From positions 1 through 59,230 of the forward strand of contig SVIS01000008.1 of NCBI GenBank assembly GCA_015069385.1: a DNA stretch of 59,230 nucleotides, written 5' to 3'. A program made the position numbers and the translations under genes. Positions 4,141 to 4,262 of the stretch are shown here, in pieces. The number at the start of each line of letters is the position of its first letter. Position 1 is the first letter of the stretch. The notes under the pieces are model-generated. The model did no database searches. It saw only the letters and a program-made list of their open reading frames with translations, and was not told where the DNA came from. The stretch is from Clostridiales bacterium. Lineage in GTDB: Bacteria > Bacillota > Clostridia > Christensenellales > UBA1242.

Positions 4141-4171
4141 ATTTAATTTTCCTCTTAAATTAGTTTTACCA

Positions 4172-4247
4172 TGCGCCAAGGCTTAAATAATATTTAAGAA
4201 AATGCATTAGCATTTTGTTTGCTTTTTTTAAGCAAACCCTTGGCGCA
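4172..4247. ncRNA. Perfect flush four-helix junction (cloverleaf) element, predicted 5' leader of ychF or a small palindromic element
   Basis: P1 4172-4181 TGCGCCAAGG / 4238-4247 CCTTGGCGCA; P2 4182-4198 CTTAAAT-AAT-ATTTAAG; P3 4199-4216 AAAATGC-ATTA-GCATTTT; P4 4217-4237 GTTTGCTT-TTTTT-AAGCAAAC; no unpaired nt between helices. Confidence 0.75.
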
Positions 4248-4262
4248 CACCTTTACCATAAC

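Follow-up and report, generated by a model that had tools for sequence, protein, structure and literature searches.

Dispersed cloverleaf elements with a fixed architecture and replaceable arms in a Clostridiales bacterium and its relatives

What kind of sequence is the exact cloverleaf that sits between the divergent genes ychF (start 4143) and dut (start 4398) in a 59,230-nucleotide stretch of Clostridiales bacterium DNA (contig SVIS01000008.1, hereafter the window)? A preliminary description of the locus claimed a perfect, flush cloverleaf of 76 nucleotides, nested too exactly to be expected by chance, and suggested that it may act either as a structured RNA or as a DNA cruciform or Holliday-like substrate. 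Our analysis shows that this cloverleaf, here called element A, is one of a set of dispersed, lineage-restricted, presence/absence-variable elements that possess a fixed architecture and replaceable arms. On balance, and with moderate confidence, we read element A as a lineage-specific insertion from a dispersed group of small non-coding cloverleafs, found in a genus of uncultured gut Clostridia, that would be moved in trans as folded DNA.

The claimed fold is real and spans 4172-4247 exactly. The range first given, 4165-4257, contains element A but also takes in most of a flanking 8-bp direct repeat, TTTACCAT. All 32 base pairs are Watson-Crick with no G-U, and the only unpaired bases are those of the three loops, with none at the junction. 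The parts of the element are as follows (copies B and C are described below):

4172-4247: element A, 76 bp, a perfect three-arm cloverleaf, equivalent to a flush four-way junction
4172-4181: 5' half of the closing stem, TGCGCCAAGG, 10 bp, with the GCGCSAA motif common to copies B and C
4182-4198: arm 1, CTTAAAT-AAT-ATTTAAG, 7 bp with a loop of 3
4199-4216: arm 2, AAAATGC-ATTA-GCATTTT, 7 bp with a loop of 4; copy C has a similar hairpin, AAATGCATGAATGCATTT
4217-4237: arm 3, GTTTGCTT-TTTTT-AAGCAAAC, 8 bp with a loop of 5; copy B has a similar hairpin, GTTTGCTAAAAGCAAAC
4238-4247: 3' half of the closing stem, CCTTGGCGCA
4165-4172: left copy of the 8-bp flanking direct repeat TTTACCAT, a putative target-site duplication
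4252-4259: right copy of TTTACCAT

The cloverleaf is both the minimum free energy (MFE) and the centroid structure of element A, with an MFE of -35.1 kcal/mol as RNA (z -7.0) and -28.6 as DNA (z -8.6); none of 200 shuffles was equally stable in either case. Element A resembles tRNA in its length of 76 nt and its four helices, but it lacks the tRNA consensus bases, has no unpaired junction bases, and has no Rfam tRNA match; the earlier remark that it is of tRNA-like size without tRNA consensus bases holds. The same is true of the statement that no Rfam class fits, as a scan of the locus at permissive thresholds gave chance-level matches only. Assignment to any Rfam class, including tRNA (RF00005), was rejected, with both A and B scoring at chance level and far under the gathering cut-offs. 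An intrinsic terminator was likewise rejected, as the stem is not followed by a T-run and a terminator scan found none.

The organism's own genome was rebuilt from all 31 contigs (1,208,191 bases) and searched for flush multi-arm junctions in two scans, one restricted to exact Watson-Crick stems and the other run with RNAfold, which also admitted G-U pairs; ten random genomes of about 1.2 Mb each, drawn from the same dinucleotide (Markov) chain, served as the chance control. Element A scored 32 stem pairs, second in the genome to copy B with 36, whereas the best of the ten random genomes reached 25, bearing out the claim that such nesting is improbable by chance. Both scans recovered A and the unrelated-looking B, the RNAfold scan added C, and a search anchored on GCGC added D:

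Contig C10, 14061-14147: copy B, near-perfect three-arm cloverleaf, 36 stem pairs
Contig C2, 53702-53785: copy C, near-perfect three-arm cloverleaf
Contig C3, 6658-6735: copy D, weaker and less regular cloverleaf

A high-copy sequence repeat was rejected as an explanation, since BLAST finds element A only once in its own genome and the family emerges by structure only. Copy B starts immediately after the hflX stop codon, and copy C is located between a histidine-leader attenuator and hisS. In that region of contig C2 (L073, 14163-14317) a short open reading frame, MKNISFLHHHIK, is followed by an intrinsic-terminator-like hairpin; we assign this region upstream of hisS as a histidine leader-peptide attenuator, and it is conserved in the sister species G003 (L194).

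Several observations connect these divergent copies. The motif WGCGCSAA..TTSGCGCW is common to the closing stems of A, B, and C, and its position 1 (A-T/T-A), position 6 (C-G/G-C), and position 9 (G-C/T-A) show paired changes. Certain hairpins also reappear in a different order: A and B both contain GTTTGCT, B and C both contain TGCTTTGC, and AAATGC is found in A as well as in C. Run against the whole genome, a covariance model based on copy C only found B (45.5 bits, E 3e-7) and A (39.2 bits, E 9e-6) despite their divergence, with the majority of arm pairs compensated; beyond these, just the reverse strand of C was matched. The same model recovers one element, E, in G003 (31.8 bits, E 2e-4). 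The exact-stem pattern GCGCSAA..TTSGCGC, searched over 120 genomes, also recovered E in G003; its matches were mainly chance occurrences in coding DNA or tRNA, and outside the genus a reversed control was equally frequent.

A structural scan of about 500 kb of G003 (JAFUKB01, Clostridia bacterium RGIG4566, from roe deer) yielded E, I, and G, four copies of a type F, and a type H that is present many times. Elements E and I, both located shortly after stop codons, show 80% identity across 60 bases, their substitutions and their length changes being paired. In F and G, the closing stem takes its 5' half from the host gene, whose coding region ends there with its stop codon (CAATTCCTGCATAA, encoding ITIPA*; CCGTAA of aspS), while the 3' half repeats this sequence in inverted form; in one F copy, at L151, the stem sequence then appears for a third time, in direct orientation (X, X', X). 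A further repeat unit in G003, GATTTTAGGCTTCGTCGCG - variable hairpin - CTCGCTCCTCGTAATAACG, is found in either orientation, some of it in tandem, and is possibly a CGTC-bearing repeat of the repetitive extragenic palindromic (REP) kind.

L151 (reverse complement) 1021-1190; L148 741; L147 13288; L157 920; L144 17558: G003 cloverleafs with a closing stem derived from the host gene
L144 17637-17930; L157 1077-1220; L153 150-330: GATTTTAGGCTTCGTCGCG/CTCGCTCCTCGTAATAACG repeat unit in G003

Comparison of matching sites in relatives shows that the elements vary in presence. At the ychF/dut site element A is absent or unrecognisable in G002, G003, and G004, with the best fold at the G003 site reaching a z of only -0.87, and in G001 ychF has different neighbours. 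No cloverleaf was found behind hflX (the copy B site) in G001, G003, or G004, or before hisS (the copy C site) in G003, and copy I of G003 has no counterpart in G000. The presence/absence pattern at orthologous sites that marks a mobile insertion element is seen for A, B, C, and I, and A, B, and C look like gained insertions because they are without counterparts at matching sites. These comparisons run against the idea that ychF has kept a structured RNA ahead of it across relatives: the preliminary description had itself named absence from homologous positions as the refuting outcome, and the ychF-linked RNA reading fails on that point because the element is missing from the site in relatives. 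The compensatory changes it suggested looking for upstream of ychF in relatives were found between dispersed copies elsewhere.

The cloverleaf architecture also recurs as one module within a larger element, the H-type. Each H cloverleaf is bordered on one side by a conserved core (TTATATTATCGGAAG - variable hairpin - CTGATGGTTATTCAAAC) and on the other by TAGTTTAT; by BLAST this unit is present in 31 of 199 genomes of the family and 15 of its 42 genera. The units are often arranged head to tail, about 145-157 bp apart:

G003 L168 14359-14585; L242; L241; genomes G013, G033, G035, and G182: H-type head-to-tail arrays

H-type modules were collected by their flanks, so the covariation test is unbiased by fold. 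When 17 modules were aligned with MAFFT, blind to structure, the RNAalifold consensus comprised arms 1 and 3 together with the closing stem, and 15 of 18 pairs carried double changes; arm 1, for example, occurs as CCACGA/TCGTGG, CCTTGC/GCAAGG, CCGTT/AACGG, and CTACAA/TTGTAG. Whole hairpins are exchanged between close copies. With an independent covariance model built from one H module of G003, the top match in the window is element A (19.8 bits, E 0.002; the next match scores 14.6). At L249 1732-2233 (genome G156), an IS200-type TnpA gene with its own separate hairpin ends directly adjoins an H-type element.

Whether DNA or RNA is the constrained molecule can be approached through the non-canonical pairs, as a constraint on RNA is expected to tolerate G-U but not A-C. 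Across 22 cloverleafs G-U makes up 12 of 665 pairs (1.8%), versus 75 of 1077 (7.0%) in 51 tRNAs from the same two genomes. It is still scarce in the listed H-type modules gathered by their flanks (8 of about 299 pairs), and in the H-type alignment, where the strand is defined, there are as many G-T as A-C pairs, eight of each. A DNA palindrome is favoured as the kept unit because G-U is scarce and G-T equals A-C in the H-type alignment. This favours selection at the DNA level and is compatible with an RNA function that a copy might have incidentally within a leader. Between the two alternatives proposed at the outset, the evidence leans to the DNA substrate, and the conserved ychF-leader RNA falls away.

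Under the reading we favour, the unit maintained and moved would be folded DNA, either a single strand or an extruded cruciform four-way junction, and an enzyme supplied in trans would recognise the folded shape together with a small number of closing-stem bases. Element A would then be a small non-autonomous palindromic mobile element that, as a by-product of its present location, probably also makes up the 5' leader of the ychF mRNA. Decayed copies would be lost, and we propose that surviving copies are nearly perfect palindromes because of this loss.

A number of points weigh against this interpretation. No enzyme tied to the movement of cloverleaf elements was found: the IS200-type Y1 transposase (PF01797) is matched in none of five genus genomes, although control genomes gave matches; TnpB in the genus genomes is limited to weak partial zinc-finger matches, except for a fragment in G002; and across the family, Y1 transposase and the H-type element show no clear association. 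The copies in the organism's own genome are too dissimilar to be recent daughters of each other, and solo copies such as element A are tied to the H module by architecture only and not by sequence descent. No consistent target-site duplication was found across copies, and with flanks about 75% identical between relatives, exact element ends and target duplications are unreadable. Neither scan nor model found any cloverleaf element in 400 kb of same-genus G004, all genomes compared are drafts or metagenome-assembled genomes, and most solo copies came from a scan favouring perfect pairing. Around element A itself the repeat TTTACCAT is a candidate target duplication, and nothing comparable was seen flanking the other copies. 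Two specific carriers were rejected: an IS200/IS605 mobiliser, as the genus is without Y1, co-occurrence in the family is unclear, and the IS200 at L249 has separate ends; and phage carriage, as viral contigs contain the H-type core by coincidence only and do not contain element A.

The main rival is a mutational by-product, in which fold-back (template-switch) synthesis at stalled forks builds and perfects adjacent hairpins and inverts a copy of the flank to close the junction, with no movement and no selection. The F and G closing stems, built from a host 3' coding end plus its inverted copy, and the X - arms - X' - X order at L151 are what such synthesis would leave behind; whole-hairpin replacement between close H-type copies fits as well, and perfect pairing is consistent with templated correction. 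Template switching could at least account for arm replacement. As a full explanation we consider it unlikely. Against it stand a closing-stem motif and hairpins common to the unlinked copies A, B, and C (as seen with the covariance model), H-type copies that share both flanks and modules over 15 genera, three arms of similar size in every case, and the lack of any such element in the 400 kb of G004.

A bolder form of the mobile-DNA reading, which we hold only tentatively and judge improbable at present, is that the elements are shape-defined mobile DNA: the folded four-way junction would be what is recognised, its arms could be swapped for unrelated hairpins and the element would still function, and recombination would resemble that of integron attC sites. 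The recombinase would be Xer-like or one that reads structure; tandem H-type arrays would be the active form, from which solo copies such as A would derive. Integron attC sites work as folded single-stranded DNA, as is proposed here for the cloverleafs; in both, structure is kept while sequence varies, and tandem arrays occur. Unlike attC, which is one long imperfect hairpin, the cloverleafs have three arms, and no core boxes, cassette genes, or integron integrase were identified; by inspection, element A contains no recombinase core boxes of the attC or Xer type, and a dif-like half-site is found at H-type ends only.

A cis-acting RNA, in which the cloverleaf folds within the 5' leader of the minus-strand ychF transcript and regulates how stable that mRNA is or how well it is translated, is distinctly unlikely. 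The setting that would allow it is as follows:

3049-4143, minus strand: ychF (YchF/OLA1 GTPase), flanking element A, confirmed by Pfam
4398-4847, plus strand: dut (dUTPase), flanking element A, confirmed by Pfam
4263-4291, minus strand: promoter-like TTGACT-17-TATCAT for ychF, a consensus match only, with a similar number of such sites expected by chance

The promoter-like sequence stands 15 bp beyond element A on the ychF strand, and a TTGAC-like hexamer is retained in the same-genus alignment; if this promoter is used, it would start the ychF transcript just ahead of the fold, so that element A is predicted to lie in the ychF leader. The RNA fold is very stable, and copy C likewise occupies a gene leader, that of hisS. 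Set against this are the ychF leaders of three relatives that lack the element, the positions of B directly and of E and I shortly after stop codons, the pairing statistics given above, and the missing Rfam match.

We consider it very unlikely that the cloverleaf is the folded recombination site of an array or cassette element recombined by an Xer-like tyrosine recombinase, with A as a solo derivative. In its favour, the H-type left ends (TTATCGGAAGT) resemble a dif half-site, matching at 10 of 11 positions the inverse of the Firmicutes XerC half-site consensus; H-type ends account for about half of the top twelve dif-like matches in G003; the 6-bp TTTATA is frequent at both ends; and units are stacked head to tail. 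Against it, the left flanking hexamers vary, no true dif was found for comparison, the half-site is missing in A, B, C, D, E, and I, and no dedicated integrase was found.

A comparison with known small repeats shows likenesses and clear disparities. REP sequences and bacterial interspersed mosaic elements (BIMEs), tagged by GTAG or CGTC, are like the cloverleafs short intergenic palindromes in many copies (PMC3733652). REPs are single hairpins of 20-40 bp with an unpaired GTAG or CGTC tag, and CGTC-type REPs occur in genomes without a dedicated transposase (PMC3733652), the same situation as for the cloverleafs. The latter differ in that their closing stem carries three arms, no tag is left unpaired, and the sequence of the arms is not conserved from copy to copy; element A has four helices and no tag, and no REP-associated tyrosine transposase (Y1) was found in the five genus genomes. 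Miniature inverted-repeat transposable elements (MITEs) and the palindrome-associated transposable elements (PATEs) derived from IS200/IS605 are also small, non-coding, and dispersed, and H-type copies adjoin TTTAT and carry terminal hairpins. However, the cloverleafs have no matching transposase in the genus, no clear terminal inverted repeat common to copies, and no consistent target duplication. With respect to MITEs of the DDE type, A, B, and C have WGCGCSAA stems in common and the TTTACCAT repeat flanks A alone; of the TnpA (Y1) or TnpB expected in the genome for an IS200/IS605 PATE or MITE, no Y1 and no convincing TnpB was found there. Mitochondrial double-hairpin and repetitive hairpin-forming elements of Allomyces and sponges (PMC2800124, PMC7218506) are adjacent intergenic hairpins, non-coding, variable in presence between relatives, and of inferred mobility, but they are eukaryotic and organellar, lack a closing stem, and usually comprise only a single hairpin or a pair. 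In the sponge elements the stems are conserved and the loops vary, whereas here entire stems are replaced and pairing is kept. None of these nearest known kinds combines a three-armed fold on a closing stem with conservation that is independent of sequence. No description of a comparable cloverleaf family was found in the open-access literature, which does not imply its absence from all literature.

Dispersed palindromic repeats of bacteria are normally recognised by sequence, while in this family the architecture persists and the sequence turns over almost completely; sequence-based repeat finders and Rfam miss it for that reason. If the elements are moved or protected by their fold, they would offer a natural set of diverse perfect four-way junctions for finding enzymes that read DNA shape. 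Their insertion can also add structured leaders or tails to genes, such as ychF and hisS.

Elsewhere in the window, an L10 leader match (Rfam RF00557) lies at 11407-11553 on the minus strand, and two ordinary tRNA matches lie at 12628-12701 and 53154-53226. A long repeat-rich protein encoded at 5163-7985 is probably surface-exposed and contains leucine-rich repeats that are BspA-like by eye.
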